Shown in pieces: positions 21,360-25,005 of a DNA stretch of 41,908 nt. The translations under genes were made by a program, and so were the position numbers. Each line of letters begins with the position of its first letter. Position 1 is the stretch's first letter. A model generated the notes under the pieces. That model saw only the letters and a list, made by a program, of their open reading frames with translations. It searched no databases and was not told where the DNA came from. The stretch comes from Cryomorphaceae bacterium (lineage in GTDB: Bacteria; Bacteroidota; Bacteroidia; Flavobacteriales; Schleiferiaceae): NCBI GenBank assembly GCA_003566715.1, contig PXCF01000090.1, positions 1 to 41,908 of the forward strand. The letters are read 5' to 3'.

Positions 21360-21657
21360 CTATTGCATGGGCTTCTATCATGTCCATAGAATGCAACAAT
21401 TTGATATCGTTGCAGTTGTCTTTTAATTTTTCCAGAGGTTCACGTATCTTTCCTTCGTAGTCATTCATCACTTCCAAGTAAGACTCTTTCGATTTCCAGC
21501 GCTCGTACGCAATAAATGTAACCGGCGATTCTTTGTGAAGTCTTGCCGCTACGAAGGCGTCGTGTGCTCTAAACGCATACACCAATGAACTCCAATCGCT
21601 CTTAAACGATTCTTCAAATATTGGACTGAGGTGATATAATCTAATAATTGCGAACAT
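21349..21657 (-). CDS. Small ABM-like (dimeric ferredoxin-fold) protein
   Basis: 102 residues. The pattern of a strand (MFAIIRLYHL), a helix (FEESFKSDWSSLVYAFR), a strand region with SPVTFIAYERWKSKESYLEVM and a second helix resembles antibiotic-biosynthesis-monooxygenase-like or Dabb dimeric barrels, in particular the Y-x-R-W-x-S-x-E-x-[YF] signature. Function is unknown. It overlaps both neighbours (mtaB by 17 bp, suhB by 11 bp), so translation is probably coupled with both. Confidence 0.72.
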   Translation of the reverse strand: MFAIIRLYHLSPIFEESFKSDWSSLVYAFRAHDAFVAARLHKESPVTFIAYERWKSKESYLEVMNDYEGKIREPLEKLKDNCNDIKLLHSMDMIEAHAIDGQ

Positions 21658-22987
21658 TTTCCAAAGGTACAGACGAAAGCTCTACCAAAGACACCGTGCC
21701 ATCATTATTTTGCTGACCGAGTGTTAAATCTTGAACCGTATTGGTCAAAGCCGGGTCCCAGAAGGCCTTAACCCTTACATAGTTCTCGGTATATCCTAAG
21801 ATATATCCCTTATTATTCTCGTCTTCAAACAGTACACGCTTGCGCATACCCTCTTGTGAAGTGTAAAATGCTCGGCGTTTCTTTGCCGATAAACCACGCA
21901 GCATTTTGTTGCGTTTTTTGCGTTCGGGAATAGGCACCACGCCTTCCATTTCCACCGCTTCGGTGTTGTCGCGTTCACTGTACGTAAACACGTGGAGATA
22001 ACTTACCGGCAGCTCGTTGATGAATTGATACGTTTCTAGAAAATGCGCTTCGGTTTCCCCCGGAAAACCAACAATTACATCGACGCCAATGGCTGCATGA
22101 GGCATATGTTTTCTAATACAGGCCACACGATTGACGTACAACTCTCGACGATAACGGCGCTTCATTTTACCCAAAATCTCGTTGGAACCCGATTGCAATG
22201 GAATGTGAAAATGGGGGACAAAACGCTTGGAGCTGGCAACAAATTCAATAATCTCTTCTGAAAGTAAATTTGGTTCAATGGAAGAAATGCGAATGCGATC
22301 GAGCCCTTCCACATCGTCCAACGCACGAATCAAATCCATAAAGGTGTGCTCGTGCTTTTTATTACCGAATTCTCCTTTACCGTAATCACCTGTATTGACA
22401 CCTGTAAGCACCACTTCTTTGATGCCTTGATTCACAATCTGTCGAGCCTGCTGAACCACCTGATCCAATGGCGCACTTCGACTGATACCGCGCGCCAGTG
22501 GTATGGTACAGTAGGTACATTTATAATCACAACCGTCTTGCACCTTTAAAAATGCGCGGGTACGGTCGCCAATGGAGTAACTGCCTACAAAAAAATCGGC
22601 CTCTTCAATGTCACAGGAATGTACCTCGCCACTATCTTTTTTAGCAAGGTCGTGCAGGTACTGTCCGATGTTAAACTTCTCTGTTGCACCCAAAACCATG
22701 TCCACGCCTTCAAACGCGGCAATTTCTTCAGGCTTTAGCTGGGCATAGCAACCCACCACCACCACAAACCCATCGGGATTGGCACGCTGAGCCCGGTTTA
22801 CCCAATGCTTACACTCGCGATCGGCATTTTCCGTTACCGAACAGGTGTTAATCACGTAAACATCTGCAACTTCAGAAAAATCTACGCGCGTAAAACCATC
22901 GTCTTCCAACGTACGCGAAATAGCAGACGTTTCGGAAAAATTAAGCTTACACCCGAGGGTATGAAAGGCAACTTTTTTATCGGACAT
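21641..22987 (-). CDS. mtaB: tRNA N6-threonylcarbamoyladenosine methylthiotransferase MtaB
   Basis: Radical SAM enzyme that adds a methylthio group to t6A37 of ANN-decoding tRNAs. 448 residues. The N-terminal UPF0004 domain has its three cluster ligands, Cys13 (LGCKLN), Cys49 (NTCSVT) and Cys80 (VGCYAQ); the radical SAM cluster is Cys153-x3-Cys157-x2-Cys160 (GCDYKCTYC); a TRAM-like C-terminus follows. The TLGCKLNFSET opening is typical of MtaB rather than MiaB or RimO. An exact -7 box lies 21 bp upstream. Confidence 0.94.
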   Translation of the reverse strand: MSDKKVAFHTLGCKLNFSETSAISRTLEDDGFTRVDFSEVADVYVINTCSVTENADRECKHWVNRAQRANPDGFVVVVGCYAQLKPEEIAAFEGVDMVLGATEKFNIGQYLHDLAKKDSGEVHSCDIEEADFFVGSYSIGDRTRAFLKVQDGCDYKCTYCTIPLARGISRSAPLDQVVQQARQIVNQGIKEVVLTGVNTGDYGKGEFGNKKHEHTFMDLIRALDDVEGLDRIRISSIEPNLLSEEIIEFVASSKRFVPHFHIPLQSGSNEILGKMKRRYRRELYVNRVACIRKHMPHAAIGVDVIVGFPGETEAHFLETYQFINELPVSYLHVFTYSERDNTEAVEMEGVVPIPERKKRNKMLRGLSAKKRRAFYTSQEGMRKRVLFEDENNKGYILGYTENYVRVKAFWDPALTNTVQDLTLGQQNNDGTVSLVELSSVPLENVRNY

Positions 22988-23057: not shown

Positions 23058-24536
23058 ATGATCTCCGTCGTTTGGTTCAAACGTGACTTGCGCATCAGCG
23101 ACCATGCGCCCCTGCAACACGCCATCGCGCGTGGATTACCTATCCTTCCCGTGCACCTCGTTGAACCCCACGCACTCAAGCAACCGGAGTACGACCCCAA
23201 ACATCTCGCATTTTTGCTTGAAGCCGCATTCTCTCTACAATCCAATTTTCCTTTGCAAATACTGCATCGCGACGCATTGCCGTTTTTTACTTCACTCACA
23301 AAAAAATACCCCATCGAAGCTGTATACAGTCATCTGGAGACCGGTGTGCAATGGACGTTTCGGCGCGACAAATCACTGAAAGACTTATTCAACAAACAAA
23401 ATATCAAATGGCGTGAATTCCAAAACAACGGCGTACAACGCGGACTGAAAGACCGTTCAGAGTGGGATAAGAACTGGCGCTTGTTTATGCAGGCTGATTT
23501 GATTCATCCGGATGTGAAAAACGCACGTTGGCACATCAAAGAAGCGGGAACATTTCTTCCGGAAACCATTTTTGCAATCACCAAAAGGAATCACCAAAGG
23601 CAAATAGGCGGTGAAAGAGAGGCGAAAAAGCTGCTCCATTCATTTCTCGATGAAAAACGGTACGTCAATTACCAACGTCATATTTCGAAACCATCAGAAA
23701 GTCGGACGTCGTGCAGTCGGCTGAGTACCCACCTCGCTTGGGGAAGCATTGGTTTAAGGGAAGTCTACCAAAACAGCATGAAAACCTACGGCAATGACGC
23801 AACCAACAAACGGGCGCTTCAAGCCTTTATCAGCCGACTCCATTGGCATTGTCATTTCATCCAAAAATTTGAAATGGAAGACCGTATGGAGTTTGAAAAC
23901 CTCAATAGAGGGTTTGACAACATCCGTCACGAGATTGATGAAGAAAAGGTAAACGCTTGGAAAAACGGTCAAACCGGCATTCCCATGATAGATGCCGCTA
24001 TGCGCTGTGTTGCCGAAACGGGGTATCTCAACTTTCGCATGCGCGCCATGTTGGTGAGCTTTCTCACCCATCATTTGTGGCAACCGTGGACGGCAGGCGT
24101 GCATCATCTCGCACGCTGTTTTTTAGACTTTGAACCAGGTATTCACTTCCCCCAGTTTCAAATGCAAGCAGGCTGCACTGGAATCAATCAATTTCGCATC
24201 TACAACCCCGTCAAACAAGGGCAAGACCACGACCCGCAAGGCCACTTCATTAGAACCTGGGTACCTGAACTCAAAGATCTACCCAACGAACTGATTCATA
24301 CACCGTGGAAAATGACGCCCATCGAGCGCGCTTGGACACCTATTGAATACCCACCTCCCATCGTTGACATAGAAACATCGGCACGGCACGCAAGGGATGT
24401 TTTGTTTCAGCACAGCAAAAACAATCCACTGGTGCGCAGTGAAAACTTTCGCATTTTGAGCAAGCATACCACGGCGATTAGAAAAATTGAGCAGAGAACA
24501 AAAGCGATTATGCAAACCAACAGAAAAAACAGCTGA
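23058..24536 (+). CDS. Photolyase/cryptochrome family flavoprotein, divergent active site
   Basis: 492 residues. The N-terminal alpha/beta antenna domain begins [16 protein letters not shown] (4-19), and the helical FAD-binding domain occupies about 200-480. FAD-domain landmarks are [11 protein letters not shown] (306-316), [16 protein letters not shown] (321-336), FRIYNPVKQ (379-387) and IRTWVPEL (398-405). In CPD photolyases the region before the last motif holds an Asn near flavin N5 and a WQW; here, aligned by eye on FRIYNP, these positions read His363, Phe367 and Met369 within [17 protein letters not shown] repair with different chemistry or a sensory role are both possible. No [4Fe-4S]-type cysteine set was recognised. 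Confidence 0.88.
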
Positions 24537-24558: not shown

Positions 24559-25005
24559 CTACCCTTCCTCATTCTTTTTCACACCCATTGTTTCCGGACG
24601 TTTGACCAGATAATACCCAATAGACAACGCCAAGATAATGGAAGCCAATCCAATGTTGTTGATGCCGCTGTTGTGCCCGACATCAAGTACGAGCAACTTT
24701 CTTCCGATGGCAATCAGTCCAATCAGAAGAATACTCTGCACCTTGATGCTGTGTTCTTTTATATACAGATTAAAGGTATCTATCAGCTCAATGGCGATGA
24801 GGATATTAAAAAAAACCGGTAATACTGCAGACGTTTGCTCTTTGGTGATCAGCAAGCGATCGCTGTGATCGTGCGCCGTAAAAAGAGCTTTGCCAAATTG
24901 GTAGACCAGTTCAATGATTTCAACCGAAATGTACAAAACAACAACGCCAGAGAGCACATAAAACACAAATCGCTCGAAACCATGTGTCCATTTGGTATAC
25001 TTCAT
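24559..25005 (-). CDS. PsiE-like (phosphate-starvation-inducible) membrane protein
   Basis: 148 residues with four hydrophobic helices (about 12-36, 62-80, 88-105, 115-135). The middle region ILIAIELIDTFNLYIKEH and the IGRKLLVLD that follows are typical of the PsiE family. E. coli PsiE is induced by phosphate starvation, but its biochemical role is unknown. The gene converges on the photolyase gene with 22 bp between stops. No Pho-box was recognised upstream. Confidence 0.82.
   Translation of the reverse strand: MKYTKWTHGFERFVFYVLSGVVVLYISVEIIELVYQFGKALFTAHDHSDRLLITKEQTSAVLPVFFNILIAIELIDTFNLYIKEHSIKVQSILLIGLIAIGRKLLVLDVGHNSGINNIGLASIILALSIGYYLVKRPETMGVKKNEEG

Follow-up and report, generated by a model that had tools for sequence, protein, structure and literature searches.

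Lesion-side and flavin-N5 residues are replaced across a widespread clade of bacterial photolyase-family proteins

The window analyzed here is a stretch of 41,908 nucleotides from a Cryomorphaceae bacterium (contig PXCF01000090.1). It contains an open reading frame coding for a photolyase-family flavoprotein, hereafter CPF*. The presence of PF00875 and PF03441 domains and of a photolyase fold makes it a member of the cryptochrome/photolyase family (CPF). The gene, the motifs discussed below and the two flanking genes are as follows:

21641..22987, minus strand: divergent neighbor, MtaB-like tRNA methylthiotransferase (open reading frame, named by eye from sequence), common only to the congener and one other locus
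23058..24536, plus strand: CPF*, 492 aa, PF00875 antenna domain and PF03441 FAD-binding domain (open reading frame, Pfam, AlphaFold2, homologue clade)
23835..23849, plus strand: R260-L-H-W263-H264, with Arg in place of E274 of E. coli photolyase and W263 as the retained W277 (alignment)
23853..23873, plus strand: H266-F-I-Q269-K270-F-E272, a helix motif specific to the CPF* clade (171-member alignment)
24033..24047, plus strand: F326-R327-M-R329-A330, with F326 for N341 (His in (6-4) photolyase), A330 for M345 and R329 as the retained FAD-binding R344 (alignment)
24087..24089, plus strand: W344, equivalent to W359, the sole retained member of the classical Trp triad (alignment; 170/171 in the clade)
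24144..24164, plus strand: H363-F-P-Q366-F367-Q-M369, counterpart of N378-N-G-G-W382-Q-W384 in E. coli (alignment)
24559..25005, minus strand: convergent neighbor, PsiE family (PF06146), kept only in the congener

In E. coli photolyase, Asn378 lies at flavin N5, Trp382 is the first member of the electron-transfer triad and Trp384 touches the cyclobutane pyrimidine dimer (CPD). We further take E274 to be a lesion contact and N341 a CPD contact in the E. coli enzyme, and H365 and H369 of the Drosophila protein to be the (6-4) active-site histidines. With class II and FeS-BCP enzymes set aside, photolyases are, to our knowledge, regarded as sharing three near-universal features: Asn at N5, a proximal Trp and the lesion contacts.

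The window protein was aligned with E. coli Phr from the MG1655 genome (the reference; residues are numbered without the initiator Met), with the class I and DASH gene products of its own genome and with PDB-derived stretches of 2e0i, 1np7, 4u63, 6k8i and 3fy4. Since there are no gaps between the window protein and E. coli Phr from A300 to A371, the register of the alignment is firm; this stretch and the identical columns in 171 homologues rule out misalignment. The initial annotation had matched H363, F367 and M369 (codons CAC at 24144-24146, TTT at 24156-24158 and ATG at 24162-24164) to N378, W382 and W384 by eye, and the gapless alignment bears this out. Four swaps come in addition to these three: E274 to R260, N341 to F326, M345 to A330 and W306 to H291. 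Retained residues include W263 (W277), W344 (W359), R327 (R342), R329 (R344) and D357 (D372). The FAD-phosphate and ribose residues Y222, S235, S238, R344 and D372 of E. coli are present as Y205, S220, S223, R329 and D357, each in at least 97% of the 171 members. In the FAD-phosphate loop, residue 219 (23712-23714) is Cys in 162 of the 171 members, versus Thr (T234) in E. coli.

The dN/dS ratio of the gene relative to its congener (G001) is ~0.06, at a dS of ~1.65 that is near saturation, and the gene is under purifying selection. A pseudogene or a recent misassembly is ruled out by this ratio and by hundreds of intact homologues. An AlphaFold2 model built with 44 homologues and containing no cofactor had a pLDDT of 93.3 and a pTM of 0.90, and in it the H363-M369 motif sits in a helix comprising residues 360-371. 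The closest solved folds are 2e0i (Z 37.8), the DASH structures 6kii and 1np7 and class I enzymes. The earlier supposition that the fold is intact, made from well-kept neighboring motifs, thus agrees with the model. No member of the CPF* clade was found in the PDB, where the top profile match was 1np7 (232 bits).

The active-site change is a fixed signature of a large clade, not a feature of one aberrant protein. R260, Q269, E272, F326, H363 and Q366 are invariant in all 171 homologues; M369, H266 and a Lys or Arg at position 270 are each found in 169. Position 367 is never Trp (0/171), being occupied by F, L, M, I, V and a few other residues, and position 364 is aromatic in 168 members. E274, N341, M345 and W384 are lost throughout, and the triad is short of two of its three Trp clade-wide. 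Twenty-two other family members have E, N, N/D, W/Y and W at the same columns, and none of them carries any of the replacement residues; the column of R260 holds E in 20 of the 21 non-clade members that have a residue there. Seven plasmid-borne CPF* members fit the residue pattern, with some drift in Duffyella. Taken together, the lesion and N5 side of the protein is rebuilt clade-wide on an intact CPF fold in which the FAD-phosphate site is kept.

The clade is widespread. Relatives with 40-84% identity were present in about 60 of 149 close-relative genomes; within the genus of the window, two genomes have the gene and three lack it. A scan of a genome collection returned at least 585 confirmed stretches, with Bacteroidota, Halieaceae and Bacteriovoracaceae among them. 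A profile search detected CPF* in 40 of 296 sampled Bacteroidota genomes (~14%) and in 24 of 299 sampled Pseudomonadota genomes (~8%), the phylum of Luminiphilus. Family-profile scores leave a clear gap, with clade members at 391 bits or more and all others at 250 bits or less. Plasmid records with CPF* come from Vibrio, Salinivibrio, Tritonibacter, Novosphingobium, Duffyella and Deinococcus.

The initial annotation had proposed that phylogeny should decide whether the protein belongs to a known class. In a tree built from FAD-domain columns, a branch supported at 100/100 separates CPF* from the rest, and removing the nine trait columns left it unchanged; the protein so falls outside the well-characterized classes. 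The stem of the clade approaches the DASH stem in length, and a sister grouping of the two was not rejected (p-AU 0.243). Profile scores of the window protein lie far under every NCBIfam cut-off. For class I (PRK10674 and 8-HDF photolyase), it scored 144 bits against cut-offs of 506 and 884.6; of the class I CPD photolyase residues E274, N341, N378, W382, W384 and the W306-W359-W382 triad, all but W359 are replaced. Against the Cry-DASH model TIGR02765 it scored 133.6 bits, and clade members scored 133-182 bits, versus a cut-off of 317 bits; DASH sequences form a clade of their own. The 4u63 and 6k8i pair (100/99), representing class III CPD photolyases and plant cryptochromes, lies on the canonical side of the tree, apart from CPF*. 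At the histidine pair of eukaryotic (6-4) photolyases and animal cryptochromes (Drosophila H365 and H369), CPF* has F326 (171/171) and A/S330. The DPRP N-terminal domain of FeS-BCPs (PF04244) was not matched, and there is no Cys beyond residue 373 that could hold the C-terminal cluster. Nor does the protein have the inverted domain order of SPL/NewPHL, as its antenna domain is N-terminal and its length is 492 aa.

Neither our searches nor a literature search for a named clade found a characterized member of CPF*. VcCry2 (VC1392), considered as such a member, is called CRY-DASH in PMC5241685, and the "bifunctional" group of PhrSph98, of which CPF* might have been a hidden member, is set beside class II, with W369/W390 conserved, by the paper that describes it (PMC9649867). 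In Chen et al. 2022 (PMC9178010), Xu et al. 2021 are cited for a "DASH-like" group, distinct from DASH, as one of eight main family groups. The CPF* clade may equal this published group.

The gene in the window stands alone, outside the photolyase operon found elsewhere, and its layout between the MtaB-like and PsiE genes is kept only in the congener. A broader context survey covered 108 CPF* loci, which are not phylogenetically independent; many of them are photolyase islands. An FeS-BCP gene was near CPF* in 41 loci, and in 10 it immediately precedes CPF* in the same orientation. A flavin reductase gene (PF01613) was present in 25 loci, in 23 of which it was directly adjacent and coupled. 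Other neighbors were TIGR03643/DUF2805 (22 loci), DUF2452 (21), DUF2256 (20) and DUF2071 (13); a literature search for DUF2256, DUF2805 or TIGR03643 in connection with photolyases found nothing. A second CPF gene occurred in 33 loci, being DASH in L036, the one that was run against the family model, and short and SPL-like in others. These short CPF proteins of ~363-386 aa have the FAD domain first, as in SPL/NewPHL (L061:1874-2989, L090:1871-2989, L109:1862-2989, L059:1257-2348, L052:5844-6977 and L080:4774-5931), and some of the genomes with such neighbors have several photolyase types in one island.

A relative of the excinuclease Cho is encoded directly upstream of CPF* in 16 gammaproteobacterial loci, mostly from Halieaceae, and 14 of these gene pairs overlap by 1 or 4 bp (the loci are L041, L042, L043, L044, L046, L050, L066, L070, L071, L074, L087, L095, L098, L099, L107 and L111). 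In Deinococcus psychrotolerans, CPF* is fused to a uracil-DNA glycosylase (UDG) domain (PF03167), and annotation and reading frame indicate the same fusion in D. gobiensis. The UDG part is C-terminal in both plasmid-borne genes (L194:3962-6244 and L195:4001-6262), and in the plasmid record the entire fusion is labeled "uracil-DNA glycosylase". No description of a photolyase-UDG fusion was found in the literature searched.

The genome of the window (G000) also contains class I (C63), DASH (C152) and FeS-BCP (C74) genes, which makes CPF* the fourth enzyme of the family there. DUF2256 and DUF2805 are present as single copies away from CPF*. On C63, a flavin-reductase-like PF01613 gene overlaps the start of the class I photolyase gene by 4 bp (L001:140-745 and 742-2040). 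On C74, the FeS-BCP gene is preceded by DUF429-like and SRPBCC-like genes (L116:646-3280), and the same pair precedes CPF* in L009, L013, L025 and L027.

We consider it somewhat probable that CPF* is a light-dependent DNA repair flavoenzyme that has a new substrate pocket, acts on a photoproduct or a form of DNA other than intact CPD or (6-4) lesions, and has its flavin reduced in a non-classical way. Two things suggest a repair function: CPF* is tied to other DNA repair enzymes in separate lineages, and its new residues are kept as strictly as the old ones are elsewhere. The substrate would differ because CPF* lacks the CPD and eukaryotic (6-4) contacts and those lesions are dealt with by sister genes; with class I, DASH and FeS-BCP enzymes already encoded in the genome of the window, it is unlikely that CPF* is retained for the same job. 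Gene context itself is an association with repair genes and says nothing direct on the substrate. By analogy with other photolyases, excited FADH- would donate an electron to a flipped-out lesion. H363, placed at N5, may protonate the flavin or adjust its properties, and a cationic contact replacing E274, N341 and W384 may come from R260, H266 and K270. Since the positions of W382 and W306 are lost, FAD is presumably not reduced via the classical triad; electrons could instead come from a reductant in the cell, from a flavin reductase or by way of other aromatic residues, e.g. residue 364 and W344. The idea that a flavin reductase stands in for the missing triad is weakened by the overlap of a PF01613 gene with the canonical class I gene in the genome of the window. 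As for the substrate, it is a long shot that CPF* is a functionally new photolyase class whose target is a third type of UV photoproduct, such as deaminated (uracil-containing) dimers. Light reversal of such dimers would leave uracil behind in the DNA, and this would account for the Deinococcus UDG fusion.

It is also possible, if unlikely, that CPF* uses an active site that became different by convergence, as in class II, FeS-BCP and SPL enzymes relative to class I, to repair ordinary CPD or (6-4) lesions, perhaps those of structured or single-stranded DNA. Several photolyase classes indeed have lesions in common and differ in active-site residues (PMC9178010, PMC13274461); in addition, W277 is retained as W263, and DASH, which repairs CPD in single-stranded DNA, is a candidate sister at the p-AU given above. 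However, E274, N341, M345 and W384 are gone from every member, F326 and A/S330 occupy the two (6-4) histidine positions, and class I, DASH or FeS-BCP enzymes are often encoded in the same genomes.

That CPF* is a bacterial cryptochrome, i.e., a blue-light sensor that lost repair and regulates gene expression, appears rather improbable. Loss of repair-site residues recalls plant and animal cryptochromes, and a response regulator and a histidine kinase adjoin CPF* in 11-12 loci, but these genes are on the opposite strand and are limited to a subset of one family. Moreover, the substrate-side residues are strictly fixed to new ones rather than decayed, and the UDG fusion and coupling to Cho suit repair better. 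It is highly improbable that CPF* is a dark or non-DNA flavoenzyme in which only the fold has been retained: the absence of the N5 residue and electron-transfer Trps and the adjacent, coupled flavin reductase in 23 of the 108 loci would fit such a protein, yet the antenna domain is retained, the fusion and coupling partners are DNA repair enzymes, and in the genome of the window a canonical photolyase gene, too, has a flavin reductase gene beside it.

The initial annotation had read the altered residues as pointing to a different photoreduction route, lesion preference or signaling role. The broken triad and the replaced CPD and eukaryotic (6-4) contacts agree with this reading, but its framing around a single protein does not hold, the signature being clade-wide. 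Of its three options, lesion preference is favored over signaling by what surrounds the gene: operons with FeS-BCP and DASH, coupling to Cho and the UDG fusion. The residue observation was therefore right and understated; a changed lesion preference and a changed electron route are both plausible, and signaling is less so.

In this branch, which is widespread and apparently unstudied, near-universal contacts are all replaced, most of them by invariant residues, and the genes are linked to those of UDG, Cho and other photolyases. Such a clade would either enlarge the range of lesions that light can reverse or reveal a new way to power and tune a flavin. Public records label clade members "deoxyribodipyrimidine photo-lyase", so many genomes annotated with an ordinary CPD photolyase hold something else.

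Among known systems, class I E. coli Phr (1dnp) shares with CPF* the two-domain fold (Z 35.3), the FAD-phosphate site and the equivalents of W277, W359, R342, R344 and D372, and differs at E274 (R), N341 (F), M345 (A), N378 (H), W382 (F), W384 (M) and W306 (H). The archaeal photolyase of Sulfolobus tokodaii (2e0i) is the top single-sequence PDB match (142.8 bits) and the top structural match, but is only ~26% identical and has canonical E, N, W and W at the swapped sites, with Gly at N341. Cry-DASH proteins are among the top PDB matches by both profile and structure (1np7 and 6kii; Z 37.5 and 37.1), but where CPF* is swapped they retain E, N, N, W and Y, and they can adjoin CPF* as a separate gene. 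FeS-BCPs, or prokaryotic (6-4) photolyases (PhrB, CryB), have a different N-terminal domain (PF04244), are often encoded in the same operon as CPF* and, like it, have no classical Trp triad and no Asn at N5, where Glu or Met is found (PMC3204975, PMC9178010). They nevertheless photoreduce and repair (PMC3204975, PMC9178010); SePhrB does so on (6-4) lesions with an interrupted chain and a Met near N5 (PMC9178010). A broken Trp triad alone therefore says little about function.
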